NCBI RefSeq assembly: GCF_963678975.1
Contig: NC_089274.1
Span: 7,780,143 to 7,844,142, forward strand
Reading direction: 5' to 3'
Source: Dysidea avara
Lineage: Eukaryota > Porifera > Demospongiae > Dictyoceratida > Dysideidae
DNA length: 64,000 bases
Numbering within the stretch: position 1 is the stretch's first letter; every line of letters begins with the position of its first letter. Position numbers and translations under genes: made by a program. Below the pieces are notes generated by a model. It was not told the origin of the DNA, made no database searches, and saw only the letters and a program-made list of their open reading frames with translations. This document shows positions 16,802 through 61,071 of the stretch, one piece after another.

Positions 16802-17030
16802 CAGTGGATCCTCACTAATCCGAACAGCTCTGTTCTCAAGTTGACAAAAGTCTGTTCAGATTAGTGAATTTGTTTGGATTAGTGAACCCATTGATTATAT
16901 ACAGAACCTAATTCAATTACTCTAATAGAACATACATTTGTTTGCAAATACTCTAATAAAACAGTCATTTGTACTGTTCGAATTATCGAGCATTCGGATT
17001 ACTGGAGTTCGGATTAGTGAGGATCCACTG
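16802..17030. mobile_element. pogo/Tigger-like MITE
   Basis: The 24-bp ends begin CAGTGGATCCTCACTAATCC and end with the exact inverse complement. The length is 229 bp. The right flank is TA and the left is TG, compatible with a decayed TA duplication. Two ACTCTAATARAAC motifs (16919 and 16951) lie inside. A paralogous design, with different end sequences, is seen at 57276-57494. Confidence 0.85.
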
Positions 17031-17799
17031 TATATAGCTGTTTATAGTGTCTATCTAGTAGCTACGAAGCTTAATCTCTACACAATTGGACAAAATCATG
17101 AACACACAGAAGGAACTTACTTTAATATCTGTAGACTCCTGCACACTGGGATTTGAAATAGCCTGTATACTCAGAGGACATCATTGTTATTACACAGGAT
17201 ACCAAGTTACATTATAAATTTTATAAATTAATGTTTGAAAAAACTACCATTTAAGCTATGCTGCCACACACTGAACGTATCCATTATATTCTGGTATTGC
17301 ACTACATCAATCAGCCACAGCCACCTTAAACCTTGCAGTGCATACATGTCATCGCATTAGGACATGTATATGGTCCAACTCATATTAAAATATAACAGTT
17401 GTAGGTGACAGACAATCAAAATACTCTACCTATTTTATTCCACATCTCACTGTGGTTAGCTGCTCTTGGCAACTCCAGCCATGTCATAATCCAGCAGCAC
17501 TCCAATCCAGCACCATTTCCTCATTTAAATATCCTGGTATCATGTGAGGAGGATCACTTGACACAAACTGTGTACAGATACAACTAAAATTTTACTAAAT
17601 GTTTGTTGAAAGTTTGAGCTTCAGTGCTTGTAGGGGTCAATAACTTGGGAGTGAGGTTACACCTCAGCTCTACAGTTCAACTAAGCCTATAAATGACTAG
17701 ACTAGTTAAGAATTATTATTATATTATATTTGATTAATGTACAACCTCTATAAGAGGAAAAATGTACATATTTTGATAAGAAAATAATATAGTCAGTTA
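17031..17799. other. Intergenic, nothing recognisable
   Basis: No coding signature, tRNA-like box or paired inverted repeat that I can support. Confidence 0.5.
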
Positions 17800-18035
17800 T
17801 AAAAATAACTGTTACAACTCTTTTTAAAATGTTCTAAGTTACTAGAAGTAGCAACCTCCACCGGCAGATTGTTCCATAACGTGACAGTTGAAGGAAAAAA
17901 GGAATCGTGGTAAGCATTAATTCTGGTTGGCAATGTAACTAGTTTGAAGGGGTGCCCTCGAGTATGGTTAGTGTTGTATTCTAGGTTAACTGCGCTAAGA
18001 GCAATATTTATAATATTTGGTTGTACTGTTTTGCA
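17800..18035 (-). pseudogene. LINE ORF2 3' end
   Basis: The minus strand reads ALSAVNLEYNTNHTRGHPFK, then LPTRINAYHDSFFPSTVTLW and NNLPVEVATSSNLEHFKK. This order (RGH, a TR-N-Y--SF-P---LWN-LP block, then a closing helix) is the standard C-terminus of jockey/RTE-like LINE proteins. The frame is intact over about 75 codons. The 5' part is missing. Confidence 0.85.
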
Positions 18036-19685
18036 TCATTAGTAATGATGTAAGATTCATTAGGCAGTTACCACATCCCTGGAACTACTGCATGGTATCT
18101 GGAAGTTGTTACTAATATATTCATAGGGTGGTAATATAACTTACCTTACTAGTACCAGAAAAGTAAATATGAGCTTCAGATCTCCATACCATATATTCAA
18201 ATCAACAGTGCAGTATGTGCTAGTAAATAGACCAAAGCCTGCCCTATACATGCTGCATAGTGGTGGTCTTGCATTAGTCTATAAGGCAATCATGAAAAGT
18301 GAAGCAATAATATTAATTGATTTTTTTTGAGCTAATAATGCTAACAATATTGTTGTAAACCCAAGTCTGAAGTGTTAATTTTCATTACAAAGAAGTGTTA
18401 AAACCTATCTCTTTTCACCAATCACCAATATCAATTACACTTTTTGACCACAAAACCATGCATGCGCTTCACTACTCAGGATTGCCTTGACAACTGTCAC
18501 AATTAAGAAACCTTATTATGGCTTCTTCAAAGGTAGTTATATTACCACACTATGAATAGTAAACAAGTTGTATTACTTATAAGCCCAAAAGAAATTATGT
18601 AAGGTGCCAACACTGATAATAATGATAAGCTTTATGAAATGTTACGTTTGCAGTTAAATATAAGCTAACTACTGACTAATGATTGTTATTATGATTATAT
18701 TAATAATAAAAATATAGAATTAAAAAAAACATAATCCAATTGTTTCAACATCATTGACTCAACAATTAACTGATTGGCAATGAGACCTACTGACTACATG
18801 CACATAGGCATGCACAGGTCCAAAGCTGGTCTACAGCATGTACTTCCTATGCACTTTAATAGTTAGCTACATGCTACACTGACACTTTGTTCCACCATGG
18901 TTACTAAGCCTGTAGATTCTTTTCATAGAAGCCAGACTGTGAATGATCTGTAGCCAGATATTGGTTGTGTTCCAAAGTGAACTATCTGTCTACTTGCCTG
19001 TCTGCTCATGTGAGGAGGAAAAATGGTTACACACAGGCTCGTAAACAAGGAGCTTTGTCTTTGTTACTGTCATAGCATAGTTAAACATGTATAGGAATTT
19101 TGTGGTGGCACATTCTGTAGGGTTTGTTGGTGTTGTTGCATGGGTGCAACTAGGTGTTGGGTAGTACCTGGATTCCTAAGTGGTTTGACCACTTTAAATA
19201 TAGTGTAACTTGAACAGGTGATAGCTGATAATCTGGAAGGTTTATCCCCGTCCAACAGCGAGTAAAAGCACTGCATGATTACAGTATGCAGTGATCATAA
19301 GATTCAGCACAAAATTGTGCCAGAAAAAACTCAACTTGTTCAAAAATGTCTACCACTACCCCACCAGTCACTGCCCTTCAGTTCTGCTGGTCCCCACACT
19401 CTCCTATCATGCAGCTATGCAGCTCTGGTAAACACAGAGGCTGAATAAATTCACTGAAATAACTGCTGTTGATCAGAAAAAAAACAATATTTCTTCTTGA
19501 GGCTAATATTGCTTCCCTTCTACATAGCAATTCCTAGAGAATTGGCAGTAATAGATAATGTACCAAGTAATAGATAATGTACCATTGCTTCCCACCTTGG
19601 TAAAGTTTTAGGTGTGTTTATTATACATTAACACCCAAAACCACTAACAGTGTAAACACTGAAAACAGCATTAGAGTCATTAGAA
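18036..19685. other. Intergenic, nothing recognisable
   Basis: AT-rich sequence with no supported gene. Parts just upstream of the LINE end (18040-18300) may be its decayed body, but I cannot read a frame there. Confidence 0.5.
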
Positions 19686-20100: not shown

Positions 20101-20477
20101 GCCATCACATCAGACACAAGTGTTCCTATATTTCCTGTTTGTTGAGATATGAGTCCTTATTAGGATTCTGCAATAATTAATTTTATAAGGTGTGCCTATT
20201 ATAAGTTAACACCCAAAACTACTCAATACATTCTAATGACATAATAGCTAAATCAGATCATGGCAAGCGACTGACCACAGTTCATATATATACCAAAGTC
20301 AGGACCATTTACACTAGGTTTAATTCTAGTGCTGCGGTTTCAACTGTTATATCACTACCAGAACATGTCACACTATTCAATAAGATGGGTCCTGATCCTT
20401 GATCAAAGGAAGCTGACCCAATGGCTGTTCCTGATGATCCAAATCCCAGTTGCATGGTTTTGCATCCTGACAATATT

Positions 20478-20771: not shown

Positions 20772-22437
20772 CAATGTAGGCAGGTGAGTTGCCTCACCAA
20801 ATATTGTTGACTGAAGGCATGAACTGAGAGCTACATTGGACCTTTTAGATGCATTGAAAGCTTGCATTAACAAAGTTATTATGCTGTTTAGTTCAACTTA
20901 TTGTACATAGTAAGAGTCCATCCAAAGGCAGCTCTAGGGGATTAGCTTCAGAAACTGGTCAATCATGCAAGATCGATATACTCTAATAGAGCAGTTACTC
21001 TAATAGAGCACTTACCTTAATACAATAATCAAGCAAATTTAATATAATAGTTTTGATAAAGTTAAACCACTTAAATTACTCTCTCAGATGGTCTAACTTT
21101 CCCAGGGGAGCACAACCCAGACCCCCTGGATTGACATGTTACCAGTGCTTATTATATACTACTCAAGTCAAGGTCTGAGCTACATGCATAAAATACCATA
21201 TATGTGCATTCTTTGCAATTACCATAATAGTAGGACTAAAATTATCTCCAGATTCAATCTTATAACTCTAAAATTTCCTTGCGGGTGGCATGCCCCCAGA
21301 CCCCCTAGCTGGAGCATATATACTACGCATGCTGATTGTACTTACACACTAGAGTGCATGCATCATTCATAAAGCATTGCAGGGTCAGGGGGGCTTGTAC
21401 TTCAACTCTTCTGTTTGACAACAGGGGCATAACTATAAATTTAAAATAGGTGAGGCAGCAGAAAAGAATAAAGTTAAAATTACATACATGTGCTGTACAT
21501 CTTTACAGGGATTTGACCAGTCTTGAGATTGCCATTTTCAAAAATTTTCCACTTGTGGTCCACTAAATTGCAACTTATAGTTATAATCATTTTCACAGTC
21601 CACTATTGATATAAAATAATTGCCTTAAAATCTTATAAAACAATAGTTTAATCTAAATAATTGGCTTGTACGTCACTGTAAGTTTGTTTGCTATTTCCTA
21701 ATTCCAGATCTCAGTCACTTATATCAAATTGCTTCCAGATTCAATCTTGTCACAATTGTGTTTGAACTATAGGTAAATATACTCCCACGCTACCCTGAAA
21801 TCCCTTCAATCATTCCCTTCACTGACATTTTGCTACACAACAGTCGTGACAATATAGAGCACAAAATATGTGATTCAAATACAAAAGAAAATTTTATTTA
21901 TATGTACTACAACCATCCCCCCCCCCCCCCCGGTCTCAGATTTGGGCTAATTTTTTTTAGCCACTGGAGGTTGGTCCTAGTCAACTCAACCATCTCCGCA
22001 AATAAAACTGGTACTCAAACCACAAGGTTGGCTGCATCAAGTTAAGCCTTTGATTTTTCCCCACAATATAAAAAAAAACCTGATTCACTGCATGACTAAT
22101 TAGTATATCACAACTGTAACATCAACTTTCCGGGCCTAGCAGCTGACAACTATAATAATCGCATCACGTCGGTCTTTTTCCCACTTGTTCACTTAGTGAT
22201 CACGAAGGACAGGTTTTGTTGTGTACTTTTCAGCAAACCTTGGATATATTCAAATGATTTGCACTTAAGGTATAATAGTGGATTGTAGACAATGTAGCTA
22301 TAAATATCTGGTGTGTGTGCTCACTTCCCTTGGCAAGTTATAATGGATCTTGAAACTTCTGATGTGAGATTTGGAGTATTCTATCACAAATTTCCCCTGC
22401 TGACAAGTGTTAACATCACACCATAACCTCAAAGCAT
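20772..22437. other. Intergenic with decayed element pieces
   Basis: It holds a pair of ACTCTAATAGAGCA motifs (20979-21012), poly-C tract (21916-21932) and transposon-like scraps such as GGGGCATAACTATAAAT at 21424. No complete element or gene can be bounded. Confidence 0.5.
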
Positions 22438-22625: not shown

Positions 22626-22631
22626 TTAATA

Positions 22632-22860: not shown

Positions 22861-22899
22861 AAAGAAGTATATGCTATGGCACAGTCAATCTTTACTATA

Positions 22900-24119: not shown

Positions 24120-24233
24120 ATGCTGCAGTGACTACAGTCACTGCAGCTCTGTAGTCACTGCAGCTGATAGCTAAATTGTTGGCTTGTAACTGTTTAGTGC
24201 CGCCGTATTAACATTACAGAAATCAACGAAGAG
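24120..24233 (+). promoter_or_regulatory. Proximal promoter / 5' leader of the barrel/EF-hand gene
   Basis: Contains two direct copies of GTCACTGCAGCT (24137 and 24154) within an overlapping palindrome, GCAGTGACTACAGTCACTGC. A splice-acceptor-like TTAACATTACAG ends at 24219, and the frame from 24220 is open into the ATG at 24234. An intron in the leader, or an additional upstream exon, is therefore possible. The in-frame TAG at 24195 blocks a longer unspliced start. Confidence 0.4.
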
Positions 24234-25934
24234 ATGGATGAAATCAAGGCTGAGGTTGCTCGCGTCCAAAAGGACATAAGCGATGTTAAAATTCAAAAGC
24301 GCGAAAAGCTGCAGAACTTGGATTTCTTTGTGCTGGACAATTCCATCCGCGAGAGCACGGTCGGCCAGCTGCGTAGCCACACCTTGGAAAACAAAATCCA
24401 AATCTTGGAACAAGTGCGGAAAGTTGGCATAAAGCATATCACCATTGCTTCGTTTTCACACATGACCCGAGTAGACGATGATTTCGTGAAGTATCTCAAG
24501 GATAAAGGTGAAGATTTCACAAATTTTTACTCCTTTTCAGAAGTTACTGAAGGAGTCAAAGATGGTCGCTACGACACCGAGACAATTCCTGTATCCCTGC
24601 AAAAGAACCATGACTTAAACATACCGAACACGTTTTTCGAAATGGACCTGGCTAATGAAGATGTTGAGTGGGATACGAAGTTTACCGTCGATGACATGTG
24701 CCAGATGATCTACAAGTGGATGAAGTGGACATACGACAACATTACCAAGGATGCGCGGATCTTGTTCAACTTTCGTGACCTTCCGTTTTGCATGACTGTT
24801 GCTCCTGATCGCCTACTTTATGTGGTCCGTTTCCTCTCCAAGCTTCCAGTTGAGCACCGACCCTTTGCTCTTTGCTTTGAAGATCCCTTTGGGGAATACC
24901 TACCAGAAGAATTAGAAGCGTGGACAGCCAGCATGAGGAGGACCATGACAGCTAATGGCTGGAATGATGGGAAAATACTTGTGCACATTCACCAGAAGTG
25001 GGATCTCCAGACAGCCTCACAGCTTGATTGTCTTGCTGGTGGTGCAGATGGTGTGTGGGCCAGCCTGTGTGAAGAAGGTGCTGCTTTGGGTCACGCTTGC
25101 TCATCCATCACCATGATGAACCTAATTCGGCTTGGAAACACCAAAGTCCTGGAGAATTACAACTGCGTTGAATTGAGGAATGCTGCCAAAGAAGTTACCA
25201 GGATTACAACTGGGAGAGAGCCGCATCCCAAGCAAGTGCTTTATGGAGAACGTGCTACTGATTTAGTATTTGGCTTCTTGGGTATTGGTGATTTTGACAT
25301 GGCTAAATTTTTTGGGTGTGAAGCACCTAATCGAATAACTACACTTGCGACAACAGACATGATTGTAGATCGGATGGAGAATTTGTATGGCAAGAGTCCA
25401 CATTTCACCGAAGAAATAGCCATGAAGATGAAAGAACAGATGCTTTTGGATGTTCGCAATGGTCGAAAAGAAGAGTACAACAGTACAGCCGGTCTTGCTC
25501 TCTTATTTGATCGTGCTGGAGGAAAGCTTACGGAAAAAATGGCTGATGCGATTGCTCAAGTAGAAGTCAAGTCATCATACCACAAACAGCTCATTGATGA
25601 GATACGGGAAGAGTGGGACAAATGGGACAAGAGAGATAAGGAACAAAATGATGGCCGCTTGCAGTTTGATAATTTCTACCATGGTTTTATGCAGCCGTAT
25701 TTTGGGTGCTACCGATGTGTGACCACGAAAAAGGCCATTCGTGCACTTGACATAGATAAGGATAATTATGTTGACTGGAAAGAATTCCTTGTTTACATCA
25801 AATGGGCTTTGCGCCAGTACCCAAATGTTGAAGATGTTGACTCACTGATGAGTATTGTTTTCGAGAAAGGGCTCATGCCTGCCATGCGAGATGAGAGGGT
25901 AAAGAACAAGGCCTTCAACCGTATTAAATATTGA
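24234..25934 (+). CDS. HMG-CoA-lyase-like (DRE-TIM metallolyase) barrel protein with C-terminal EF-hand
   Basis: A 566-residue intronless frame. Residues 1-28 are charged and coiled-coil-like. Residues 31-45 (FFVLDNSIRESTVGQ) align with the LxDxTLRDGxQ start of DRE-TIM barrels, but the usual Asp after Arg39 is Glu40. HIH at 251-253 matches the metal-binding HxH, and 269-288 (GGADGVWASLCEEGAALGHA) matches the following GADxVxGTxxGxGERxGN stretch, with His287 replacing Asn. Residues 400-566 are extra to lyases (about 300 residues) and contain one canonical EF-hand loop, D506-E517 (DIDKDNYVDWKE). There is no signal peptide or membrane segment, so it is likely cytosolic. A Ca2+-responsive aldol-type lyase or synthase is inference; the substituted positions may mean another substrate or lost activity. 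The Met start is the first after the in-frame stop at 24195. Confidence 0.9.
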   Translation: MDEIKAEVARVQKDISDVKIQKREKLQNLDFFVLDNSIRESTVGQLRSHTLENKIQILEQVRKVGIKHITIASFSHMTRVDDDFVKYLKDKGEDFTNFYSFSEVTEGVKDGRYDTETIPVSLQKNHDLNIPNTFFEMDLANEDVEWDTKFTVDDMCQMIYKWMKWTYDNITKDARILFNFRDLPFCMTVAPDRLLYVVRFLSKLPVEHRPFALCFEDPFGEYLPEELEAWTASMRRTMTANGWNDGKILVHIHQKWDLQTASQLDCLAGGADGVWASLCEEGAALGHACSSITMMNLIRLGNTKVLENYNCVELRNAAKEVTRITTGREPHPKQVLYGERATDLVFGFLGIGDFDMAKFFGCEAPNRITTLATTDMIVDRMENLYGKSPHFTEEIAMKMKEQMLLDVRNGRKEEYNSTAGLALLFDRAGGKLTEKMADAIAQVEVKSSYHKQLIDEIREEWDKWDKRDKEQNDGRLQFDNFYHGFMQPYFGCYRCVTTKKAIRALDIDKDNYVDWKEFLVYIKWALRQYPNVEDVDSLMSIVFEKGLMPAMRDERVKNKAFNRIKY

Positions 25935-27526: not shown

Positions 27527-27740
27527 GGCGTAACTAACGGGTGTCAGCACACTGTACTATATATTACTGAAACGATTGAGATACTCAATAGAGCAGTCCA
27601 TGACTCTAATAAAGCAGTCACAGTATTCATTCAGAGAAGTAGTGCAGTCAACTATGAAGTTATAAATATTGATTTTGATTATCAGCAATAGAATATGCAG
27701 AGCTTGAGACCCTTCTTTCTTTTTTTTTTGGTCTTCAGCT
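27527..27740 (+). mobile_element. hAT5-like MITE fragment
   Basis: Begins CAGTGGCGTAACTAAC, close to the end of the 55357 element. It then has GAGATACTCAATAGAGCAGTCC and ACTCTAATAAAGCAGTCAC motifs and a poly-T/GGTCTTCAGCTTTT segment also present in the 40787 and 60765 elements. The right end is not clear. Confidence 0.6.
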
Positions 27741-29884: not shown

Positions 29885-30400
29885 ATAATGACAATTCAGG
29901 TGAATTTTGGTGCCGCTTGGTCTTGGCACAAAATTCACCTGAATTGTAGGCATGAGGCTATTATGCTGCAAAAGTTGAGCATTATGCTTTTGAGCAGTGC
30001 TCAAAAAATCACCTATTATGCTTTTGAGAATTGCCCATTATTCTCAAAATTATGCCACCATAATTGGCTAATAATGCCAGTTCTTTGCTGTATCAGGCCA
30101 TTTTTTAAGCTTCAAATGGTCTTGAATTCTTTAGCTGGTTGCTGTATTAGAGTATTTCGTTCCAATGTGGCTGCTTTATTGGAGTAAATAATATTCAGTG
30201 ACTGCTCTATTAGAATTTCTGACTGCTCTATTAGAGTATCTCGATCTTTTCTAAAGGAATTGTGCAATCTGCAGATTTTCCTACTGTTAAAGCTTTATAA
30301 TCACCTCAAAATTCTAGCATAATTTCTGATTCCCACACATACATATTATGCCCGAAACTATGCCGGCATAATCGCCGCATCCCTACTGAATTGTCATTAA
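29885..30400. mobile_element. Inverted-repeat element with TAATGACAATTCAG ends
   Basis: The left end TAATGACAATTCAG is mirrored by CTGAATTGTCATTA at the right. A small hairpin (AATTCAGGTGAATTTTG...CAAAATTCACCTGAATT) sits inside the left end. Several TTATGC words follow, and two GCTCTATTAGA motifs lie at about 30206 and 30227. Confidence 0.6.
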
Positions 30401-30505: not shown

Positions 30506-30817
30506 CAGGGGTGTACGGTGGGGGGTTTCCAGGGGTTTCAGGAAACCCCTTTGGATTTTATACAGTACTTGAAACATTAAGAAATTGAAACTTCAGGTTT
30601 CCAGAATATGGCCCTGAATCTGTCATGGAACAGGACACATTTTAAACTATTATCTTGGTTATATAATAGTTTCTCACATGATAGCAACACTTATAACATT
30701 GTTCTGAATTATGATTTCGGTGAAAAGATCGAGATACTCTAATATAACAGTCACTTAGCTAGCTGTGGTGGAAACTCCTTTTCAAAATTCCTGCGTACGC
30801 CCCGAGGTACGCTCCTG
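30506..30817. mobile_element. hAT5-like MITE with GTGCT duplication
   Basis: The ends CAGGGGTGTACGG and GGTACGCTCCTG are inverted. They are flanked by GTGCT at 30501-30505 and 30818-30822. The element is 312 bp, with a GATCGAGATACTCTAATATA motif near its right side. The 5-bp duplication and CAGGGG end are typical of the hAT5 group. Confidence 0.8.
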
Positions 30818-33541: not shown

Positions 33542-35035
33542 AGCGTGATGTAATCTAATTGCATGTCAGTTTATTCATGGAAAGTGTACAACAGTGATCA
33601 GACTGTTTATTTCTCGCCCCCACACAAACTGTCTGGCATGTGAGACTAGTTAGGTACCTATATACAAATGTTGTACTTTTGCTGCATATTCAAGTTTTTT
33701 GTTATTCAGACAAAATAATTGTTAAATCTGCAATAATGGGTAAATATGTGGGAGCTGATGAAAACAGAAAAGAAATTCACTGTAGTTTCTAATAACTATG
33801 TTACATACTGTGCAGGAATTGTGATCCACAGATGTGATTACTGTTAACCATTTAATTGAGTGACCGACAGTCTACTTGCTGGCTAATGTAGTACATAGTT
33901 CTACGTATATGACTCAACCATACAGTTAAGGTACATCTTTTTTATAAAGGACAAAAATTACCAATCTTTAAGAGGTTTCATTGTAGACAAATTTGTAAAT
34001 TCTCAGTGCTATCTCTTATACAGGTTATTGTACAGGAACATTTCTAATATTATTGGTAATTAGAACTGCTCCCGTACAGTATGAGTCAAGCATATGTTGA
34101 ATGACCTAGTGTATGTATGGTATAATTATGTACATATATATAAACTTATCTATTGGAACCACTATGTAACGAACCACTACGTACGTATGTAACGAACAGT
34201 TTGAGACCAACTGATGAAATCTTACTGGGAGTTTGTCCTTTAAATTGTATTCTATAGGAACCACAGAAATTTTTCTTTATAGTGGAGGGTACTTTAAGAG
34301 AGGTTCTACAGTTAGATAATCCATCAATGCTTTTTAAATTCAGGAGTAAGAGTTAAGTCAAGGTTGTCGACCAACAGGAAGAATTGTATGCAAAAGAAAA
34401 TGAACAAGTAGCTACAGGTATCAAAACACACATATTCAATGATCAAAAAGTGGGTGTGGTTCCATGGTAGTCTACAGGCTCCCATAAGCAGGCATAGCAC
34501 TTTTCTTGATGCCATGCAGACTTGTTGCATACAACAACACAAACCCAATAAGTGGGCATAATACCATAGAGGATGTGGGTGTGGCTCCATATATCACTTA
34601 AGACACCAAAAACATTCTCAAATGGTGCATGAGTACAGCTCCACATTAAATCCCTTGAAATGCAACCCAAATGACCTGACACTAACACTAATAGACCTTC
34701 AGTGCTGGTCACTGTAAAGTGTTAATAACAATAGCACTTCAAGTTCATACATGCATAAAGAAGGACAGTAGATGTACTCTATAAAATTGACGAGGATGCA
34801 TTAATTTTTATTGCGGAAATTTTGAATGACATGTGCTCTTATATTATAGCACCTGAGAGCTGATACCAGTAGTATATGGGAGTAAACTTCACAACTTCAT
34901 TTTTTATCCCCTTAATTCTTTAGGCTATCATTAGTTGTACAAGAGATGATATGGTGACACAATTAGTACATACATAAAGCATCCACTATAGCTGTCACAA
35001 CAATGGATATATCACACCTAATAGAAGTGAATACT
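33542..35035. other. Interior of the large inverted-repeat structure
   Basis: No transposase or other gene is readable. At about 34690 the SINE tail sequence AGACCTTCAGTGCTGGTCAC occurs without a head. Otherwise nothing is recognised. Confidence 0.5.
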
Positions 35036-35200
35036 TGATTATCTGACCTTCGACTATCAACACACTTACTTACAGTAGATGTGTCTGTTCTATTAGAGTA
35101 TTTTGTCTAAGGCGTTCATTCCATTAGAGTAACTCTGTATAAAAATAGGCTTTGATTATCTGAACATGTCTTGGTACCTAGGGGTCAGGAAGCACTGTAC
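35036..35200. mobile_element. Relic of a pogo-like MITE
   Basis: GTTCTATTAGAGTATTTTGTC, CATTCCATTAGAGTAAC and GATTATCTGAACATGTCTTG follow the order of the 57276-57494 element. The ends are eroded (AAGCACTGTAC at right). Confidence 0.6.
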
Positions 35201-39316: not shown

Positions 39317-39831
39317 CAGCGTTGAAACCGGGTCGGGTCATCCGGGTCACATTTTCTCCGGGTCATCCGGGTCCGACCCGGTTTACAAATTATCTGGGTC
39401 TGACCCGGATTGGATCACGTGGGAAACGAAATTGTTCGTTTGATGACGTGGAACTTATAAACGCTATCGCGTAGCTCTTTTGTGAACCACGCCCACTTAT
39501 CGCGTTACCAACATACGCTCAGCCACGCCCATTTATTAGTAAGTGCAGTATGTAGCACAAAACTGAGGGTATCTATGGTGAGGGGTAGCTATTGTCAGCA
39601 GGTGATGACCCTTTTTTTTTTGGTCTTCAACCTACAGCTAGGCTGAAGTTGCAATATTTACTCAACACGAATCGAACGCTCAAAACGTAGTCTCGTTCGC
39701 TCACTCGAGACTAGCCGAAGCATAGCTCTTATCGCACGCCTCGGCTTTAATTAATCCGGGTCAAATCCGGGTTTTGCTATCCGGGTCAGTGGGTAATCCG
39801 GGTCAGCAGTAGTGACCCGGTTTCAACGCTG
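39317..39831. mobile_element. hAT MITE with 8-bp duplication
   Basis: The ends CAGCGTTGAAACCGGGTC and GACCCGGTTTCAACGCTG lie between perfect 8-bp copies of ATCCAAAT (39309-39316 and 39832-39839). The subterminal regions are packed with CCGGGTCA words in both orientations, likely transposase-binding sites. At 515 bp with no transposase, it is non-autonomous. Confidence 0.93.
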
Positions 39832-40342: not shown

Positions 40343-41329
40343 GGGTAGGTAAAAACAGTGGACCCGAGGACCCACGGATCCAACTCTTCTTGGAGCTTTT
40401 TACACTTCACAGTATTCTATACTTGTCCTCTGCAAGCAGTCTTGCATGACCAATCCACTTTTTTTCTCCCTCGCGGCGTCTCGCACGATGTTTACACCAA
40501 TTAGAAATTATAAGCGCCTCTGAAAAAGTGTCTGAAGCTGACTGCATTAATTACAGGTCACTCGCTATTTTCCCAGAGTATTTGTTTGCACAATAAAAGC
40601 CACAATGTTTCTAAACTTTAGTAGCTGGGTGACATAATAGACTAGCATGCTCATTGTGCAACAGGCGAACAATTACAAGCTAAGCAAGTTCCAGTAGTTC
40701 TTCATATGTCATGTTGCATTTGCGCAATGTTCCTAAACTACTCTAGTAGCTAGGCGGCAATGGGCATAATAGACTAGTATGCTTACCAATGGCGGATCCA
40801 TGCAGGATGGGGCATTTGGGGCAAATGCCCCACCCCCCCCCCCTTCAAGAAATTGCATACAAGATCGAGATACTCTAATAGAGCAGTCAATTACTCTAAT
40901 AAAGCAGTCACAATGTTCATGAGGCAGTGCAGCTTACTTATGGAGCTATAAATAGGATTTTATTTTACATAACATACGTGATATAATATATTTGGTAAAG
41001 GATAACTAGCTATTATTGTTGTGACCCTTTTTTTTTTTTTGCTCTTCAACTTTTTTCAACAAGGTGCCTCCCCCCCCCTCTTTCCAGACTCTGGATCTGC
41101 CCCTGCTTACTGTATAGCAGGCAGTGGCCTATAAATGCAGTCAGCTTCAGACACTTTTTAGAGGCGCTTATAATTTCTAATTGGTGTAAACGTCGTGTGA
41201 GACGCCGCGGGGGGAGAAAAAGTGAATTGGCCATGCAAGACTACTCGTAAAGGTACCTAGTACAAGTGTGAGGCGTATAAAATTCCAAGCAGAGTTGGAT
41301 TTCTGTGGGTCCACTGTTTTTATCTACCC
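40343..41329. mobile_element. Mutator-like non-autonomous element with 9-bp duplication
   Basis: The ends GGGTAGGTAAAAACAGTGG and its near inverse complement lie between perfect copies of TGGTGGGCT (40334-40342 and 41330-41338). The inverted arms are long (over 250 bp), including CAATTAGAAATTATAAGCGC and GGCGTCTCGCACGATG with their mirrored forms. A hAT5-like MITE (40787-41105) has inserted in the middle. Nine-base duplication plus long inverted arms is the Mutator-like pattern. Confidence 0.88.
40787..41105. mobile_element. hAT5-like MITE nested in the Mutator-like element
   Basis: The ends CAATGGCGGATCCA and CTGGATCTGCCCCTG are flanked by CTTAC on both sides (40782-40786 and 41106-41110). 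It carries poly-C after GGGGCAAATGCC, a pair of ACTCTAATARAGCAGTCA motifs at 40872-40910, and a poly-T/GCTCTTCAACTTTTTTCA stretch. Nearly identical to 60765-61071. Confidence 0.93.
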
Positions 41330-41338: not shown

Positions 41339-43114
41339 TACCTTTCTGTCCCATTTAATTTTTGCTGACTGCACAAGGTGTCAATTTGTGATAGCTTGTG
41401 ATGGTTTCCTAAATTTGTAATGTGTATATTTATAGTAGCTGCAGAGCTTCTTACACTGTTCTTTTTTAATGCAGTTTAACAGGCTGACACATAGCTGAAA
41501 TTGAAGCATAATGACCACTTTACTCTTCAGCAGTAATTGATAGTTGGGGTGTGAAAACATACGGTGCTATTGTTTATTTTGATATGGTATAAGTAGTTTT
41601 ACCAGTTATAATCACATTATTCAAAAGTAAGCAAACACATATGTGCAAGAAAAATGAGGTCAATCAGGGATCATAGAAATACAAAGAATTGAAACAAGAT
41701 CACCTAAGCACATGAAGAATATAGTCTACCTGTGAACATTTAATTCCAATTTCAGTTATGGATTACTTGTCCACTATAGTATATCCATACTTTTAAGATC
41801 AAAATTAATGAACATTAAACTAATAGCATGTTGTTATCTTTGCGTAGGCTTACAAGGGGTATTCATCATCATAAGGCATACAACTAGAATCAAGACATTT
41901 GATTGTTTATCACTTAGATCACTTGATTTCAGCTAACATTTATGCTTGATATTTTAAGCAGGATGTCTTATAATGATCTTGAAATTATAGTTTCTTGATC
42001 ACCTGTTTTTGGCAGTACTTGGCTGCTTTATGTAGCTTTAACTAGACCCTTGATCACTTAATTACGTTTTTATCCCAGGCTCAAGCACTGGCACAAAACT
42101 TATAGAAGTGACTACCCTTTAATTATTTTGAACTCTGATCCAATAGACATGCAACATCGCTGTTAAGGAAGAGATTGTATATGGTGTATTACCTTTTATC
42201 ACTGACCATCTTCACACAAGTACATCTTAGATGGTTGCTTGTAAGTTGCTTCATATTTCAGACCATCTCAACAAAGATGATCCACCTATGTAGTTCACAC
42301 TTATTTTGGTCTCACCATTATATACAGTGTCCAAAATAGGTTATCAAAGTTTCATCCAATTGCATGGGCAGCGGGAAGGGGACTGTATAGCCCTTGTCAA
42401 ACAGATTATGGAAGGCCCTCTTTAGCTTTCATCAAACATTGGCATAGTTGTGCAGATTTATTACAGCTAATGGCCAAGTGTACAATTCCTTAGCTATTCC
42501 TACAATTCCACCAGATTCTACTTGCAATTATTGGTATTCAATTCCAAGTTAGCAGCTTGCACTGATTACGTCCCTGCCCTTTGTTCACTCCGCCTGACTA
42601 TAAATGTATATACCCCAATAGAGAAGTCACCCTAATACAACAGTCACACTTATGTTAGTGGTCACTGCTGATCAAAGATTTCTTAGAGGGAGGGGTCCTC
42701 CTATGTACATCTCCATCTACTTGATACTAACAGGAGTCCATAATAAAGAAGAGTCCTCTCTATTACAGATTCTTGATACTAATATAAAGGAGATTAATAT
42801 ACCCTAATAGAGTAGTTCCCTAAAACATCTAATCCCACTAAAAAGGTGCCTAAGACCTATTGAGGTAGGTAGACTTGGAATTATAGTGCTAGACACAATA
42901 GACATAGAAAAAAGAAATAAAATTATTTGTACAGCAACTGCCCTGAAAACTGAATTTGTAACCATAACTTTCATTTGCATATAGGCTTATAATGCTCACC
43001 ATGAATTGACAAGTCAACCAAGGTATATACAGTTTAGACCTGCATTTACTTGTGCAAACAAAGTATTAAGGTATTTTAAATGAAGAAATGGTGATTTTGC
43101 TTATACCTACTGTA
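41339..43114. other. Intergenic; motif cluster at 42610-42830
   Basis: No gene is supported. Between 42610 and 42830 there are degenerate CCCTAATAGAGNAGT words and a TTGATACTAA...AGTCCTCTCTATTA segment recalling the CCAAGAGT MITE family. Confidence 0.45.
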
Positions 43115-43525
43115 AGATAATCACCCAATTTTGGATTGTTCTAGTCATCCAATGCTGGATGATAATTTTATCATATAATAATCATCCAAATTTGGATTGT
43201 TCTAGTCATCTAATATTGGATGATAATTTTACTATAAAATAATCATCCAAATTTGGATTGTTCTAGTCATCCAATATTGGATGATAATTTAGCATAAAAT
43301 AATCATCCAAATTTGGATTGTTCTAGTCATCCAATATTGGATAATAATTTTACCATAAAATAATTGTTGGATTGCTCTAGTCATCCAAGACTGGATGATA
43401 ATCTTATCATACAATAATTCTTCAAATTTGAACTGTTCTAGTCATCCAATATTGGATGATAATTATACCATAAAATAATCGTCCAAATTTGAATCGTTCT
43501 AGTCTTCCACCTCGGGATGATAACT
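43115..43525 (+). repeat. Tandem array of palindromic 61-bp units (left arm)
   Basis: About seven units of ATCATCCAAATTTGGATTG + TTCTAGTCATCCAATATTGG + ATGATAATTTTACCATAAA. Each unit contains two short hairpins (ATCCAAATTTGGAT and ATCCAATATTGGAT). The same unit is present in inverse orientation at 44040-44830. Confidence 0.93.
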
Positions 43526-44039: not shown

Positions 44040-44835
44040 GGAATGTGCTGTTTGGGTTGATGATTTTATGATAAAATTATCATCCAAAAGTAGAAGACTA
44101 GAACAATCCGAATTTGGATGATAATTTGTATTGGTAATCACACCGTTTGAGTGCAATTAGGGAATAATTGTACAAGTAACAGTCAAAATTGCATGAGGCA
44201 AATTGTACAAGTAACAGTCAAATTGCATGAGGCGAATTGCATGAAAATGCATGTGATTGCCTACTAATCACATAGTAACCACCTTCCGCGCTAGTAATTG
44301 TTACTAAGCAACAGAAATTTGAAAATTAATCATGGCGAAAGGTAGCAACTGTTGCTATGGAGTAAAACAACATTTACCTTAACAACGGGTACCTAGCAAC
44401 CATTGTTAAGCAACCACTCTGTTGTTATGCTATGGGCATTTATCACTATGGCAACACCATTCGTCATTTGGTTCACACCATACTGTCAGATTAACAGTGC
44501 AATTTTAGAAACTACCAGTGTGATTTGGGATTAATTGCACTCCTACTATTGGGACTAAATGTATGGCAAACCAAATCACTATGTGATTATATGATAAAAT
44601 TATCATCCAAAAGTGGATGACTAGAACAATCCAAATCTGGATGATTGTTTTATGATAAAATTATCATCCAAAAGTGGATGACTAGAACAATCCAAATCTG
44701 GATGATTATTTTATAGTAAAATTATCATCCAAAATCGGATGACTAGAACAATCCAAATCTGGATGATTATTTTATAGTAAAATTATCATCCAAAATCGGA
44801 TGACTAGAACAATCCAAATCTGGATGATTATTACT
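44040..44835 (-). repeat. Tandem array of palindromic 60-bp units (right arm)
   Basis: The inverse complement of the 43115 unit: one unit at 44068-44130 and four at 44585-44830, all of the form ATCATCCAAAAGTGGATGAC + TAGAACAATCCAAATCTGG. Between them lies 44131-44584, with several GTTGCTA/TAGCAAC words. Confidence 0.93.
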
Positions 44836-45060: not shown

Positions 45061-45409
45061 GTCATTTCGCTCACTATATAGGAAAAATGTGTTATTTTTA
45101 TCCATTTTTGGAATGAAATTGTACAGGAGTAAAAACCTTCTAAAAGTGGGATGAAAATAGGTCCACCATTTCCTTCCATTTTTGGAAACGGAACATATAT
45201 GCTTTCATGCCTACCAGGAACCGCTTAGAGCAATGAGCTGAAAATCGGTATGTAGCTGGAATAATTATCATAGAAAGTCCTTGCATTAGTACAGAAGAAT
45301 CGGAGTACAAACCACTGAAAGCCAACTACGTGTAGCAAATGTGAGATCGAGATTCTCTAATAGAACAGTCACCCTAATAGAACATTCAGCTATTATTATT
45401 TTTTTATTA

Positions 45410-45640
45410 TTAAAACTTTACAGTGGCCAGCACTGAAGGTCTGACAGCAACATGTGCTGCAGCCTTTGGATTAACCTAACCTAACACACTGGAACTGAAG
45501 ACTTAAGAAGAATACTTGACCTAGCTAACAATAAGGTGAAACAGAAAAAGGCCAAAGAAAGGGAAAAAATCCCTCCTACCCCAGGATTTGAACTGCAGGC
45601 CACCCAATGTCTAGTCGAGCGCCACACTCAGTCTCCTCCA
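45410..45640 (-). mobile_element. tRNA-derived SINE
   Basis: Minus strand: head GACTGAGTGTGGCGCTCGAC with B box GTTCAAATCC, a middle with TTCTGTTTCACCTTATTG, the TTAGGTTAGGTTAATCC segment, GCTGTCAGACCTTCAGTGC and a TAATAATAAAAA tail. A fuller copy of the 7219 SINE. Confidence 0.85.
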
Positions 45641-45764
45641 GTAGGGAAGGATTTTCTTCCTTTAAACCTAAGTATTTATTATTATTAAAACTTTACAGTG
45701 GCCAGCACTATGTTTTTAACTTACTAAATTATAGAATTGCATGTATACAGTGCAAGTTATTCTG

Positions 45765-46990
45765 TAGGGAGTTCAGCTACAAACAGTTAATATTATAGAC
45801 GATTCAGCTACAAGCAAGTCACCCTGTAGAGTGCTCAGCTACAAATATATTGCTGTAGAGATTCAGAACATTACAAGTCACACTGAAGAGAGTTCAGCTA
45901 TAAACAAGTCACCCTGTAGAGAGTTCAGTTACAGCAAGTCACTCTGTAGAGAATTCAGCTACAAACAAGTCACTGTGTAGAGAGTTCAGCTACACAAAAA
46001 AACTACCCAGTAGAGAGTTCATCTATATAAACAAGTTAGCTACCCTATAGAGATCAGTTACAAACAAGTTACTTTATACAATGTTCAGCTACAAGTAAGT
46101 CACTCTGTAGAGAGTTCAGCTACAAACAAGTCACTCTGTAGTACAAACGAGTCACCGTGTAGAGAGCTAAGCAACCAATCAAAAAACCACCCTGTAAAGA
46201 GTTCAGCTGTACAAACAAGTTATAACTCTATAGAGAGATCGGCTAGAAACAAGAGAGAGCTCAGCTACAAACTTAACAGATCACACTGCAGAGAGTTCAG
46301 CTAGAAACAAGTCATGTAGTAGAGAGGTCAGCTAGAAGACATCACCTTGTAGAGAGTTCAGCTACAAACAAATCACCCTGTAGAGTGTTCAGCTACGAAC
46401 AGATCACCCTGTAGAGAAATCAGCTACAAACAAGTCACCCTGTAGACAGATCAGCTAGAAGAAGCTATACCTTGTAGAGAGTTCAGCTACAAAGAAATCA
46501 TCATATAGAGAGTTCAGCTGCAAACAAACATCCTGTAGAGAGTTCAGCTACAAACAGATCACCCCGTGGAGAGTTCAGCTACAAAGAAACCATCATGTAG
46601 AGAGTTCAGCTGCAAACAAATCACCCTGTAGAGAGTTCAGCTAGAAGAAGTCACCTTGTATAGAGTTCAGTTACAAAGAAACCACCATGTCGAGAGTTCA
46701 GCTGCAAACAAATCACCCTGTAGAGAGTTCAGCTGCAAACAAATCACCCTGTAGAGAGTTCAGCTGCAAACAAATCACCCTGTAGAGAATTCAGCTAGAA
46801 ACAAATCATCCTGTAGAGAGATCAGCTAGAAACAAGTCACCCTGTAGAGAGATCAGCTAGAAGAATTGACTTTGTAGAGTGTTCAGCTACAAAGAAACCA
46901 CCATGTAGAGAGTTCAGCTGCAAATAAATCACCCTATAGAGAGTTCAACTAGACACAAATCACCCTGAAAAGAGTTCAGCTACAAACAAT
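45765..46990 (+). repeat. 31-bp minisatellite, about 39 units
   Basis: Unit TCACCCTGTAGAGAGTTCAG + CTACAAACAAG, with variable substitutions and length changes between units. The units are contiguous, without unique spacers. No open frame is conserved across units. Confidence 0.95.
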
Positions 46991-47853: not shown

Positions 47854-48429
47854 TATCATAAATCATGTATTACTTCAAATTCATGGCATGTCAGTAGTGA
47901 AAATTAATAGAAAAAGTCAATCTCAATCTGCACTGAAAACTTGAAGCTAACTTATTACTGTGTATGGATATAGCTAGCCACATCAAGACACTGCAAATTT
48001 TACAGCCGTGCTTAGGCAGCCTTTTACAAAGTATTTCCCACGTATCAGGCAGGATCAGACAACATGAAAGAGCTCAATACGCTTATGCTAATTCAGTCAA
48101 AATGTTACCAAATTGTATATCTTAGAAGTCTAAGTTTGCAAAAAATGTTGTGGGGGTGAGGGCTCAGGCCCCCTTGAGATAGAGCATGCATGCATGCTCA
48201 GGACCTTGTACCTTGCATACTGCATATACTAGCGGATGTATCAACCAGCTACCACCTCCTCTCCCTACTTTAAATGCACTTGTTAGCACCCCTCTGTAAA
48301 ATCTGCTATTAGATATTTAAAATAGATTTTGGTTATTAATTGTGATAGAAGAATATACACCTGACTGCTCTATTAGAAGGTATGTAAATACCACTGCTTA
48401 ATTGGTTGCTGGAGTAGATCTACCACTGT
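47854..48429. other. Intergenic, nothing recognisable
   Basis: One GACTGCTCTATTAGAAG motif at 48364. No gene. Confidence 0.5.
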
Positions 48430-51335: not shown

Positions 51336-51344
51336 TTGCCATTA

Positions 51345-51460: not shown

Positions 51461-51489
51461 TGGCACTGCTGCATGTATGGTATCATATA

Positions 51490-55250: not shown

Positions 55251-55356
55251 TGCATGGGATGTACTAGCACTCCTGCTTATTATTGAAGAAAAGTCAAATC
55301 TGTATATATAGTGCATTTGTCTTTCAAGCAGATTGTCGTACAGTGCATTAACATGT

Positions 55357-56242
55357 CAGTGGCGTAGCTACCAATGAGGCAACCGAGGCAGCTGCTTCGG
55401 TAAAAATACTCAACAATTCAGGCTGAGCAGGCCTGAGTTTTGGTAGCCCAAATTTTCTACTCAAACGTTACTAGACAGCATTACTGCTATGGCTGTATAG
55501 TGCTGGAGCCCCCACAGTGACACGGTCCGGCATTGGCTGGACCACTTTTCAGCTACTTGAATTTGTATGAAAAAGATCGAGATACTCTAATAGAGCAGTC
55601 ATCGTAATATACTCTAATAGAGCATTCGTGACACTGTTCTCATTACACTGCTTGGGTTAAATCATTTATATTGTCTTTAAATTACTTTTCAAAAGTTCCA
55701 GTGAGTTAACTGCATGGCATTGCATTGAGCTAATTGGTCATGTGTATCATGCATTAGCAGTTACAATCAAAATATAGCCTCCACATGCCATTTCAAATCA
55801 TAATTTTCCTTGAAGGAACATGCTCCCAGACTCCCTAACTTGATATGCTTAGCACAAACAATTGAGCATCACATGAAAGAGATAATCTCTGACTTAAACA
55901 TCACATCAGATCAATAAAAAAAGTATAGTGTGCATGACTATGACCTCTGTTGCAGTTAATGGATGGCTTGACCACTCAAAATATCTCTCAGTTTTTGTGT
56001 TGAGTACTAGTCTAAAAATTGAAGTATGGTATACTGTAGCATTAACCATTACTTGACATGTAGAAACACGCTCAGCGTCTTCTAAAACAGTTTCTTCCAT
56101 CCAAACAGAGAGTCAACCTGTAAATACTGTACCACCCATACTTGAGAGTGTTTGTGAGTCAGTTGAGTCAAAAGCAGACCCTTTCAATTAGATCAATGTA
56201 TAAACTTTGCCTTGGTAAAATTTTTTCATGGCTACGCCACTG
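55357..56242. mobile_element. hAT5-like element with CATGT duplication
   Basis: The ends CAGTGGCGTAGCTACC and ATGGCTACGCCACTG lie between CATGT copies (55352-55356 and 56243-56247). It is 886 bp and contains a pair of ATACTCTAATAGAGCA motifs at 55580-55625. No transposase frame is recognised. Confidence 0.92.
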
Positions 56243-56247
56243 CATGT

Positions 56248-57275: not shown

Positions 57276-57494
57276 CAGTGCTCCCTCAGTTATTCAAACC
57301 CTCTATTATCCGAACACTTGGATATCCGAACAGTAGAAATGATTGCTCTATTAGAGTATTTTGTCCAATACGGATGTTCTATTAGAGTATTTGGACAAGG
57401 CTCTGTATATAAATGAATGGGCTTTGCCTATCCGAACTTTTGATTATCTGAACATGTCTTGATACTGATGAAGTTAAATATCGAGGGAGCACTG
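57276..57494. mobile_element. pogo-like MITE
   Basis: The ends CAGTGCTCCCTC and GAGGGAGCACTG enclose CCGAACACTTGGATATCCGAAC and inverted TATCCGAACTTTTGATTATC segments. The right flank is TA and the left TG. Two reversed TTCTATTAGAGTATTT motifs are inside. Same design as 16802-17030. Confidence 0.8.
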
Positions 57495-58599
57495 TAGTTG
57501 CTCAGAATAAGTTAATATGGCTGGCCACTACAGGTAGTTATAATGACATTAATAAAATTAATAAAGGCAGATGGTATATGATTTGACTGCAAACTATGAC
57601 AAACATCATTTACACAATATGCTTTAAAGGGAAGAGACGTAATTAAGCCAGAGTCAAATATCCTTAATCAGTTAAATGGTCTATTAGGGCATTTAACACT
57701 AAAGGGACTGTTCTAGAGTGTAGGAGGAATTTTTCTGTTGCAGTTTGCTTTTTCCACTAATTGCTCTATTAGAGAGTATTAATCTGTTTTCAAGGTGTTA
57801 ATATTTTGAAATATCCACAAAATACACTAGCATATGCTGACATAGCACTCTAGCCTATTTATTATGCTGGCATATTTGCTGCAGGCCGAGACACAATACC
57901 TAAAATGAGATTTTTTAGAGATACCAACTTCATATTTGAAGCATATACTTTGACCATAATGTTTAATGGTTGATTGATTATATACCTGATTGTGATCTAG
58001 TGTGGTTTTGGCTCTCCATAGGTTCCTTCCAACTGACACTGGCTACAAGTTTATGTAGCTATTTATCCATCTACTCTTGTTACCTGATTTGATATCTGAT
58101 CTTGTCTATAGTTAGGCCATCATTATTATATTCCTTCCACACACATCATTTTTTTAGGTAGCTGCACCAAATTTTAATTGTTTGATTATACAGTAGATCA
58201 TGTGAATGCACTATTTCATGATAGTAGGAGGCACAAGAGTGACCAAGTTTTAAGGTAAATGCATTATCTGTGCATGGAAACGTAGCAGAAGGTTGGAAGT
58301 TCTTCCATGCACTGTTGTTCAACAAGGTGCATGGGTGTACAACCCTGGCAGCCTTCAAGATCAAGATACTCTAACAGAGCAGTCAGAGACTGAAATAATT
58401 AGAGTTAAGTATAATTAATAATCAATATCACCTCCCACCCGCATAATCTTTTGTTCTGTTAGGTGACGGGAAACGAGCAATATAATAATGATGGCCTTAG
58501 GTGTTCATGAATCTCTACAGGCTTTTTCTAAGTGACTTTGGTTGCAACATTATGCGCAATAATTTGGAATCAGTGTAAAAGTACTTCAGATAAGACTTT
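57495..58599. other. Intergenic, nothing recognisable
   Basis: Isolated CTCTATTAGAG (57763) and ATACTCTAACAGAGCAGTCAG (58365) motifs. No gene. Confidence 0.5.
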
Positions 58600-59345
58600 A
58601 TTCATCCCAAATACCAAACTGATTGGTTCAGCCATTCAACAACTACAGGTGGCCAGAAAAAAGATCGTCCATTTATTGATGTATCACTGTATAGAGGTTG
58701 AACACTGTGGACTATAATGGTGGGATAAACCAGCTAGCACCCCTGTTAATTGAAGAAATTTCTTTCATATTGTACCCTTTACATCATTAAACTATAAAAA
58801 GACGTCTCAAAACCATCATACATGCAGAGATTTGGACTGCATGGGAATGTTAATGCACTGTATGACTAGACTGACCCATCTGCTCGAAAACATTTGTTGA
58901 TGGCAAGTAAGGAGTTGCTGCAGACAAAACGGACTATACCTGGATCAAACAGCAGTAGCACAATGTTCACAGCAACTGTTTCCATCATTTAAGTGGCTGT
59001 GGAGATCTTGTGGTGTCCGAAAATAGTATAGTCAACGAAACACGCTGACTTCAACGAGCCTTATCTTCCAAACCAAACATAGCTGAGACTCCAAATTTTT
59101 ATTGACACACGACCATAGTCGCATAGACTGATGTTACATGCCCTAGAGTTTGGAGGAAATCGGAGTTGTAGTTACTGAGTTCAGGGCCACTGTCCGGATT
59201 ATTGATTGCTTTTCCGGATAGATATAGCTATTGGCTTCGTGTACCTAGCTGCTTCAACCGTTCGGGCTGAAATTTTATATTCGAAGTACTTTAGCCTAGA
59301 CCTTTATACGCTCCAAAATTTAGACTGATCGGTTTATCCGCTTCA
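58600..59345 (-). repeat. Inverted copy of the TCCGGACA block
   Basis: 58600-59060 mirrors 54400-54920. 59095-59345 mirrors 51490-51770 (ACTGTCCGGATTATTGATTG, TTCAACCGTTCGGGCTGAAA, CTAGACCTTTATACGCTCC, GATCGGTTTATCCGCTT). Confidence 0.85.
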
Positions 59346-60240
59346 TATCAAAACTTGTGTAAGATATTCCGGATTTCCGAATGGGTTACGCCCGTTTCGT
59401 ATAAAATAACACCGTCCTCTAAACAAGGCGCCATAACTTCCGCGTACTTTGGTTGACGGACACGAAGTTTGGTTTATCAGATTCCTTGATGAAAGGCGAT
59501 TCGATTCATGTGTAAGTTCTTTGTGTAGTAACGAAGGGGAAGCTAGAAAGGAGCCTTGTACCGCAAAATTTACGTGTTCGGAATGCCCGTAAAAACACGT
59601 GTTTTTAAACATATTTCTATAACCTAACCTGTTCAACAATTTGTACGGTCGGAGTCTTATTAAGCATCCTTCGCTGCGTAGAATGATACCAAATTTAGCG
59701 AATTTGGTTGAGGATAACAACTTGTAAATTGGGATTTTCCCGGCGAGATAATTTAATTTTCCAATAGGTTAATGTATGGAGCGCGTATTATGTCATCATC
59801 AGCAGTAAATAACTGTCGCTATGGCGACATTTTCCCATTTGTACGGTCAGAATTGGATAGAGAAATTCAAGGGCTTTCTTTTATTGTATGGTGTGCTGTA
59901 GAAATTTTGTGAGTTAAAGGTTGTAAATTAGTGTTTTGCCGTGTAGTGTAAAATACATGTATTTTGTATTGGACAAAAAATGACAAGGAATGATGAGATT
60001 TTATGATCAGCCTGTTTTACCAAGTTGAGGTTTCAAAAAGGATATTAAACAGATTTTAGATTTATTTAATGCATAATTCTTAATTTTTAAAGGTTTAACC
60101 CAGTGTTTGAAAATTTTTAATGTTGACCACCTGAAAATGCTTGATTTGACAAATCCCATACATATGTTTTGATATGTGGCAACTACAGGTGTCCGGGAAA
60201 AGGATCGTCCGGTTATTGATGACTTACTCTAGTCTATATC
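59346..60240. other. Unassigned, ends in a TCCGG...GATGACTTACTC terminus
   Basis: 59346-59760 is more balanced in composition than its surroundings and has a 125-codon minus-strand frame without a family match. Near 60190, GTGTCCGGGAAAAGGATCGT and CCGGTTATTGATGACTTACTC mirror AGTCATCAATAACCGG at 51498. They are therefore candidate outer termini of an element spanning 51.5-60.2 kb. Confidence 0.5.
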
Positions 60241-60764
60241 CAGTGTTGGGAGTAACGCGTTACGTAACACTATGAAAAAAGAGGAATATAAGATGGTATA
60301 TCTAATGGCTTAAACTATACAAATAATCTCAGTATAGTCTTGCATTATACTAACTATCTTATACTTCAGTATCAACCCCGTCTTATATTATGGGAAACAG
60401 ATTATACTTTAGTTTAATACACATTCTTTGTATGGCTTTGTTTACTTAACTAAATGTGATAACTTTTTAGAATCACCATCAGATCTCATTACTGTCTCAT
60501 TTTTAGCTTCACCATCTCATGTGACTTAAGATTTTTCTACTGTACCAAACAAAGTCATGATGATTTTACAATAAGTAGCTACACTTCTGTTAATCACTAT
60601 ATCTAGCTAACTAGCTTCAGTTTGTTGTGATAATTTCATACACACACATTTTCATATGGCAAAGCATATAATACCAGAAAAAATAATTATTCAATCTAAG
60701 AGTCATACAAATCTAGATTTTCTTGCACAGTTAGTCTAGCACACCTGCAAAAGTTCGTAGTAAT
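60241..60764. other. Intergenic, nothing recognisable
   Basis: Begins with GGAGTAACGCGTTACGTAAC, which is mirrored by ATGTAACGCGTTACCTAAGT near 63238. The two could delimit another element, but the intervening arms do not obviously pair. Confidence 0.4.
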
Positions 60765-61071
60765 CAATGGCGGATCCAGGATGGGGCATTTGGGGCAAAT
60801 GCCCCCCCCCCCTTCAAGAAATTGCATACAAGATCGAGATACTCTAATAGGGCAGTCAATTACTCTAATAAAGCAGTCACAATGTTCATGAGGCAGTGCA
60901 GCTTACTTATGAAGCTATAAATAGGATTTTATTTTACATAACAGACGTGATATAATATGTTTGGTAAAGGATAACTAGCTATTATTGTTGTGACCTTTTT
61001 TTTTTTTTTTTGCTCTTCAACTTTTTTCAGCAAGGTGCCCCCTCTCTTTCCAGACTCTGGATCCGCCCCTG
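60765..61071. mobile_element. hAT5-like MITE with GTAAT duplication
   Basis: The ends CAATGGCGGATCCAGG and CTGGATCCGCCCCTGG-type, flanked by GTAAT (60760-60764 and 61072-61076). Nearly identical to 40787-41105, including the motif pair and the poly-C and poly-T tracts. Confidence 0.93.

Follow-up and report, generated by a model that had tools for sequence, protein, structure and literature searches.

Why should transposable elements with different ends and different target duplications carry the same short internal sequence? The question is raised by a 64,000-nucleotide stretch of the genome of the sponge Dysidea avara (assembly GCF_963678975.1, contig NC_089274.1, here C3, positions 7,780,143-7,844,142), hereafter called the window. 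An 18-bp word, ACTCTAATAGAGCAGTCA, recurs there in hAT-like and pogo-like miniature inverted-repeat transposable elements (MITEs), in repeats that resemble transfer RNA (tRNA)-type short interspersed nuclear elements (SINEs) and in many unclassified repeats. We call this word the core, and the core with the short prefix that often precedes it the module. A preliminary description of the window had proposed that the module is itself mobile, is a site for a host protein selected in many elements, or has spread by template switching. With somewhat less than even confidence, we lean towards the second of these, a binding site of a sequence-specific host protein that would have been kept and exchanged among transposon lineages.

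The core is far more frequent than expected. In the window it occurs 31 times at up to 3 mismatches, against 0.08 expected, and none of 100 dinucleotide shuffles attains this number. A shorter word gives 25 occurrences at up to 1 mismatch, against 0.73 expected. The repetition first noticed in the window is therefore genuine, and the positions quoted for it were right to within about 8 bases (Table 1). It also holds across the genome (550.8 Mb in 108 contigs), where the exact 18-mer is found 31,539 times (15,702 + 15,837) and the exact 27-mer that includes the prefix, GATCGAGATACTCTAATAGAGCAGTCA, 11,425 times (5,718 + 5,707). Both words, read backwards, are found 0 times. The window is denser than the motif-independent sample (31 copies in 64 kb), but it was selected because the word had been noticed there. 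That sample consists of 20 stretches of 10 kb spaced along one contig only, C1 (200 kb in all). It contains 60 copies at up to 3 mismatches, or 300 per Mb, and the reversed sequence contains none; extrapolated from these 200 kb of C1, the genome would hold about 165,000 such copies. The window and the 20 C1 stretches, none of the latter fetched by the motif, make up the 264-kb set used below. As the shuffled, reversed and backwards controls are all at or near zero, plain base composition was rejected as the cause of the word frequency. Five motif strings had no occurrence in the literature searched, a search outside which subscription papers and repeat databases lie. Among the papers listed for sponge genomes and transposons, none had a title or opening lines of an abstract that concerned such a motif.

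The shared unit is AAGATCGAGAT-ACTCTAATARARCAGTCA, about 29 bp long. An information profile was built from 105 first copies and 60 second copies, 165 distinct sequences left after 12 of 177 rows were removed as duplicates. Information is restricted to positions -11 to +17, and the right edge is sharp: in first copies it falls from 1.54 bits at the last core base to 0.21 at the next. At core positions 9 and 11 either G or A is found. First copies carry the left part, AAGATCGAGAT, and second copies lack it. The GATCGAGAT that had been described as often preceding the word is thus real but confined to first copies. Prefix and core form one unit, because 25 of the 30 places found by a prefix-only search of the 264 kb (up to 1 mismatch) lead into a core at up to 2 mismatches. 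Within the core lie a near-palindrome, CTCTA-A-TAGAG, and the string AATARA. In a few loci (loci are cited by L numbers) a short near-palindrome is formed by the module, or by its prefix, and a reverse-complementary copy opposite it, as seen by eye at L066:1456-1518, L085:362-424 and L087 around 1501.

Cores often come in tandem. Two or more are present in 51 of the 106 clusters compared. All 39 neighbouring pairs of the 264-kb set (up to 4 mismatches, up to 60 bp apart) are in one orientation; over all loci minus three overlapping ones, 66 pairs have the same orientation and 7 the opposite. The same-strand spacings are 17 bp (18 cases), 21 bp (15), 25-28 bp (15), 31-32 bp (8) and others (10). 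We do not infer a helical rule from these values, because the spacing follows the family in the cases inspected.

The carriers are diverse. When the module was masked and the flanks were compared in register, the 106 clusters fell into 62 families with collinear flanks, the largest having 16 members. This clustering omits the overlapping loci L078, L081 and L091, and some single-member families might merge once copies genome-wide are included. An exact core is present in 46 clusters, which are spread over 28 families; the 57 clusters that had been obtained independently of the motif fall into 34. A single common MITE was rejected on this count as the source of all copies. The earlier statement that unrelated elements share the module stands in part, since several of the elements concerned are relatives within a hAT-like and a pogo-like group. 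When chaining was permitted, a looser clustering yielded 43 groups; the stricter version superseded it.

Family A consists of hAT-like MITEs with G-rich ends of several kinds. One of its subfamilies accounts for 1,812 core-flank junctions at up to 3 mismatches in 35, about 1% of the extrapolated total. Group B holds the remaining hAT-like elements, which by eye begin with sequences such as CAGGGGTGTACGG and CAGTGGCGTAGC, and group D comprises pogo-like MITEs with CAGTG ends. In family C the module leads into a 31-bp minisatellite. The minisatellite itself, CTGTAGAGAGTTCAGCTACAAACAAATCACC, makes an array of 39.8 copies at 45762-46989 of the window, is repeatedly found downstream of the module (by eye) and is also present in L084, L093, L098, L103-L105 and L109. 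It looks similar to minisatellites known from sponge genomes. Further carriers are the tRNA-SINE-like repeats, a 384-bp inverted-repeat element and many unclassified repeats. A hAT-type setting applies to part of the copies; its one clean case is L113:5773-6094, which has an 8-bp target duplication with one mismatch. The one clean pogo-like carrier, L108:7714-7932, has TA on both sides, and the pogo-like element at 16802-17030 has perfect ends but TG at its left flank. Two inverted-repeat elements of the window without the module, 15515-15897 (TA) and 39317-39831 (ATCCAAAT), have perfect 14-bp end arms and intact target duplications.

In the SINE-like carriers the core is antisense and lies shortly after the B box. 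These putative boxes were assigned by eye: A and B boxes of RNA polymerase III promoters in L115 and at 4480-4720, and a B box at 6300-6640; ARAGORN found no tRNA in these repeats, nor anywhere in the window. At 7233-7416 and 45404-45611 lies another kind of tRNA-SINE-like repeat, recognised by eye, which ends in an AAT-rich tail and lacks the module.

Within two groups descent explains the sharing. Fifteen family A copies align to the right of the module, with 75-77% identity over the first 45 bp and 47-72% beyond; by eye, the left ends of 13 of them are G-rich or of hAT type but differ in sequence. In the pogo-like group, four repeats can be aligned on either side of a core pair, with 72% identity over 70 bp on the left and 64% over 44 bp on the right; two of these (16802 and 57276) have clear, different ends. 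In a fifth member, L108, the right core stands at a similar distance from the element end. The module looks ancestral inside hAT-like family A and inside the pogo-like group, because the interiors align although the ends differ. Sharing between hAT-like, pogo-like, SINE-like and many unclassified lineages stands as the remaining puzzle.

A host-protein site fits best, because the block has fixed edges, is often repeated in one orientation, is common to elements that do not align otherwise and, in the groups compared, is less diverged than its surroundings. The candidate binder would be a sequence-specific host protein that recognises a long site. Long sites are typical of many-finger zinc-finger proteins or domesticated transposases. 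Transposon lineages bearing the module would have done better or been better tolerated, and hAT-like MITEs, pogo-like MITEs, SINE-like repeats and others would have retained it as divergence changed their ends and flanks. Families that lacked it may have acquired it from other repeats, through recombination or template switching, and the module would in effect be a self-spreading landing site for the putative protein.

The lower divergence of the core is seen in both groups. The rows compared were gathered by core similarity, so the core identities that follow are inflated: in family A (15 rows) the last core has a mean pairwise identity of 96%, against 47-77% in 15-bp flank windows; in the 7 family A rows not fetched by the motif, which exclude the near-duplicate at 60841, the core has 95.5%, against 71.5% over 40 bp of flank; and in the four pogo-like repeats, a set without L108, whose core is one base longer, identity is 83% in the right core and 72% and 64% in the flanks. 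This bias is one of several points that weigh against a host-protein site. A search with the family A right flank only found 15 places, 8 in sequence not fetched by the motif and 7 in motif-fetched loci, all 15 with a core at up to 2 mismatches; they are the same 15 copies, and the result shows only that the sample has no core-less relatives with that flank. When the 386 frequent 12-mers of the 264-kb set are ranked by diversity of context, core words come first (8 contexts), and the next unrelated 12-mer is the hAT start CAGTGGCGTAGC (5 contexts); the ranking is rough, as sites were linked by any common 9-mer. The prefix is not strictly kept, its CpG being frequently TG or CA, as expected from decay of methylated CpG. 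Many single-flank matches point to core-less sites. Those listed are mostly minisatellite and nested repeats; a core matching at 15 or more of 18 positions accompanies left-flank matches in 40-81% of classes, and right-flank matches in 3-14% of the classes below 90% identity; above 90% identity, 88% of 24 right-flank matches have it. Ten clean elements were found in the 264-kb set by a scan for terminal repeats and target duplications, and 2 contain the core, against 0.8 expected, numbers too small to demonstrate an enrichment. None of the ten is an element named in the preliminary description, the ends of those being visible by eye only. An earlier form of the scan gave 7 elements, 2 with the core, one of these lying in a minisatellite. 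Finally, the hAT MITE L096:9460-9950 has family A ends and a different, core-less interior.

The main alternative is that descent and template switching suffice, without any function. An old and abundant lineage would have carried the block, and gap repair and nested copying would have spread it to other families. The block would then mark template-switch points, and gene conversion from many donors would keep it recognisable. Descent accounts for the sharing within the hAT-like and pogo-like groups, and several hAT-like copies, compared by eye, remain weakly similar for some bases beyond the left edge of the prefix. A precedent is found in the cited passages of PMC3694981, where motifs are proposed to act at junctions between dissimilar nematode satellites. 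The information profile speaks against it: random capture should bring in the neighbours of the donor, yet information ends at the same edges over all copies, and most families have nothing detectable in common outside the module. The looser clustering had placed SINE-like copies (6382 and L115) with family C, a link that the stricter clustering no longer makes. We consider this explanation somewhat unlikely, though a serious competitor. Of the three proposals made in the preliminary description, the host-protein site and template switching are the more probable, and its interpretation is supported in part.

The core could also be the site of one transposase, of hAT or pogo type, that marks its non-autonomous elements by subterminal binding repeats, the other carriers being nested or decayed. 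Tandem same-strand repeats are typical of such sites. The distances are suitable: in three pogo-like MITEs about 40-64 bp separate the end of the right core from the right end of the element, and in two family A MITEs the first core starts at 76 and 85 bp, counted from the left end. The module is found, however, with different ends and different classes of target duplication (TA in L108, 8 bp in L113), and it is present (by eye) in SINE-like repeats, which need no transposase. A transposase site is distinctly unlikely as the common cause.

A signal in the transcripts of the elements, such as a hairpin, a polyadenylation-like AATAAA or a small-RNA target, appears improbable. The near-palindrome and AATARA within the core would suit it, as would the few larger inverted repeats formed in L066, L085 and L087 (by eye). 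No compensating change is seen, however, the outer pair being C-G in 121 copies, C-A in 63, T-G in 14 and T-A in 3, and the core is antisense in the SINE-like repeats. Rfam finds no family at gathering score in the window. With neither compensating changes nor such a match, a hairpin or a known RNA family was rejected.

A self-mobile micro-element of about 29-60 bp is the least probable explanation, and the proposal that the module itself moves finds no support in the edges of 106 clusters or in 58 two-flank matches. Its discrete edges and very high copy number would fit, as would the palindromes recognised by eye at L066, L085 and L087. However, the two edges of the 106 clusters have 3- to 8-mers in common no more often than shuffled edges (of 45 tests, 1 fell below 0.05, P 0.013), and none of the 58 two-flank matches, some from overlapping loci, is an empty site, that is, without a core at up to 5 mismatches.

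Comparable systems are known. The cited passages of PMC12221973 describe two lineage-specific ctenophore zinc-finger proteins, CTEP1 and CTEP2, that bind one motif at loop anchors, and a placozoan loop-anchor motif located in Mutator terminal repeats. Looping is associated with transposons in both groups. As in D. avara, the motif is found at very many places in the genome of an early-branching animal. The placozoan motif lies in the ends of one superfamily, whereas the module described here is internal, extends over dozens of families and is known from sequence alone. CTCF is absent from non-bilaterians according to the same passages, and it would therefore be unsurprising if a sponge had an architectural protein as yet unknown. 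In its boldest form, which we regard as speculative and unlikely, the host-protein reading would make the roughly 165,000 near-identical sites extrapolated over 551 Mb a CTCF- or CTEP-like system of genome-wide addressing or insulation, built and renewed by dozens, perhaps hundreds, of transposon families of both classes.

Other parallels concern the sharing of short blocks. The passages cited from PMC3694981 report CENP-B-box-like and other motifs common to nematode satellites of low mutual identity and propose that they promote exchange. The likeness is a short conserved motif in otherwise dissimilar repeat families. The nematode families are tandem satellites with a CENP-B-box-like motif, whereas the carriers here are mostly dispersed repeats. 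CORE-SINE, V-SINE, Deu, Ceph and Nin, as presented in the cited part of PMC3899998, are also conserved blocks in families that differ elsewhere. They are domains of SINEs, whereas the block described here is short, often tandem, and crosses DNA transposons and SINE-like repeats. The bivalve pearl-family MITEs, in the cited part of PMC5139131, are likewise non-autonomous, with internal repeat modules that are also found elsewhere in the genome. Their internal repeats resemble satellite monomers, in contrast to an 18-bp core in one to four copies over dozens of families.

If a host protein binds the module, the genome offers dozens of natural backgrounds with 31,539 exact copies and an extrapolated 165,000 or so near-exact ones, and the idea that host-protein sites decide transposon success would become directly testable. 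If no protein binds it, the module would be strong evidence that DNA transposons and SINE-like repeats exchange short blocks.

Table 1. Copies of the core in the window and the repeats that carry them (q, core start at a position quoted in the preliminary description; positions are those of the window).
Feature	Position	Strand	Core starts	Remarks
Core with prefix, 1 core mismatch	5010..5027	+	5010 q	Larger repeat shared with copy at 6899
Core, 2 mismatches, without prefix	5735..5752	-		
Core, antisense to tRNA-SINE-like repeat	6382..6399	+		B box on minus strand at about 6447-6457
Core, 3 mismatches, without prefix	6652..6669	-		
Core with prefix	6899..6916	+	6899 q	
Core with prefix AATTGAGAT	7778..7795	+	7778 q	
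Pogo-like MITE, 24-bp perfect terminal repeat CAGTGGATCCTCACTAATCCGAAC	16802..17030	+	16919 q, 16950	Cores 31 bp apart
Two cores 17 bp apart, GATCGATAT before them	20980..21014	+	20980 q	
Prefix, core one base short, then second core	27574..27620	+	27603 (second)	Relative of family A
Prefix and four cores	30136..30248	-	30220 q, 30199 q, 30168, 30136	Spacings 21, 31, 32 bp
hAT-like element CAGGGGTGTACGG...CGTACGCCCC, by eye	30506..30804 (right end approximate)	+	30736 q	Prefix and core
Core in repeat aligning with pogo-like MITE interior (about 34990-35180)	35082..35099	-	35082 q	Poorer core alongside
hAT-like MITE, family A, ends by eye	40787..41105	+	40872 q, 40893	Prefix; cores 21 bp apart
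Two cores 17 bp apart, 3 mismatches each, without prefix	42612..42646	+		
Prefix and two cores 17 bp apart	45345..45388	+	45354 q	Family C, upstream of 31-bp minisatellite
Core, 2 mismatches, without prefix	48362..48379	-		
hAT-like left end CAGTGGCGTAGCTACC by eye; right end not located	55357..55628	+	55584 q, 55611	Prefix; cores 27 bp apart
Pogo-like MITE, CAGTGCTCCCTC ends	57276..57494	-	57340 q, 57371	Cores on minus strand
Core, 3 mismatches, without prefix	57758..57775	-		
384-bp inverted-repeat element, AGGCCATCATTATTATATTC ends	58114..58497	+	58368	Prefix GATCAAGAT and core
hAT-like MITE, family A, ends by eye	60765..61071	+	60841 q, 60862	Prefix

Besides the D. avara genome, viral contigs and genome contigs were scanned with the core. 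The 12 viral and 50 genome loci obtained are mostly isolated single matches in bacterial or viral records. The exception is the metagenome-assembled genome SP12ARB1 (JACOMT01), which provides 2 of the 50 loci (L022 and L055) and a third copy, L065, found by a shorter pattern. By eye, L065 resembles a kinesin gene of an animal, introns included, and this nominally bacterial assembly may for that reason hold DNA of the host animal.

Several further features of the window were recorded. A palindrome, TATGCCGGCATA, is also context-diverse, with 7 copies in 4 contexts in the window and L096-L115, and may be another module of the shared kind. A 61-bp repeat makes two arrays, at 43113-43509 and 44586-44832, which stand in opposite orientation about 1 kb apart and whose best matches are 81-90% alike. 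An open reading frame of 578 amino acids (24198-25934) weakly matches two Pfam entries, an HMGL-like domain and an EF-hand, both below the cut-offs. An exon resembling that of elongation factor 1-beta is encoded in the window as well.

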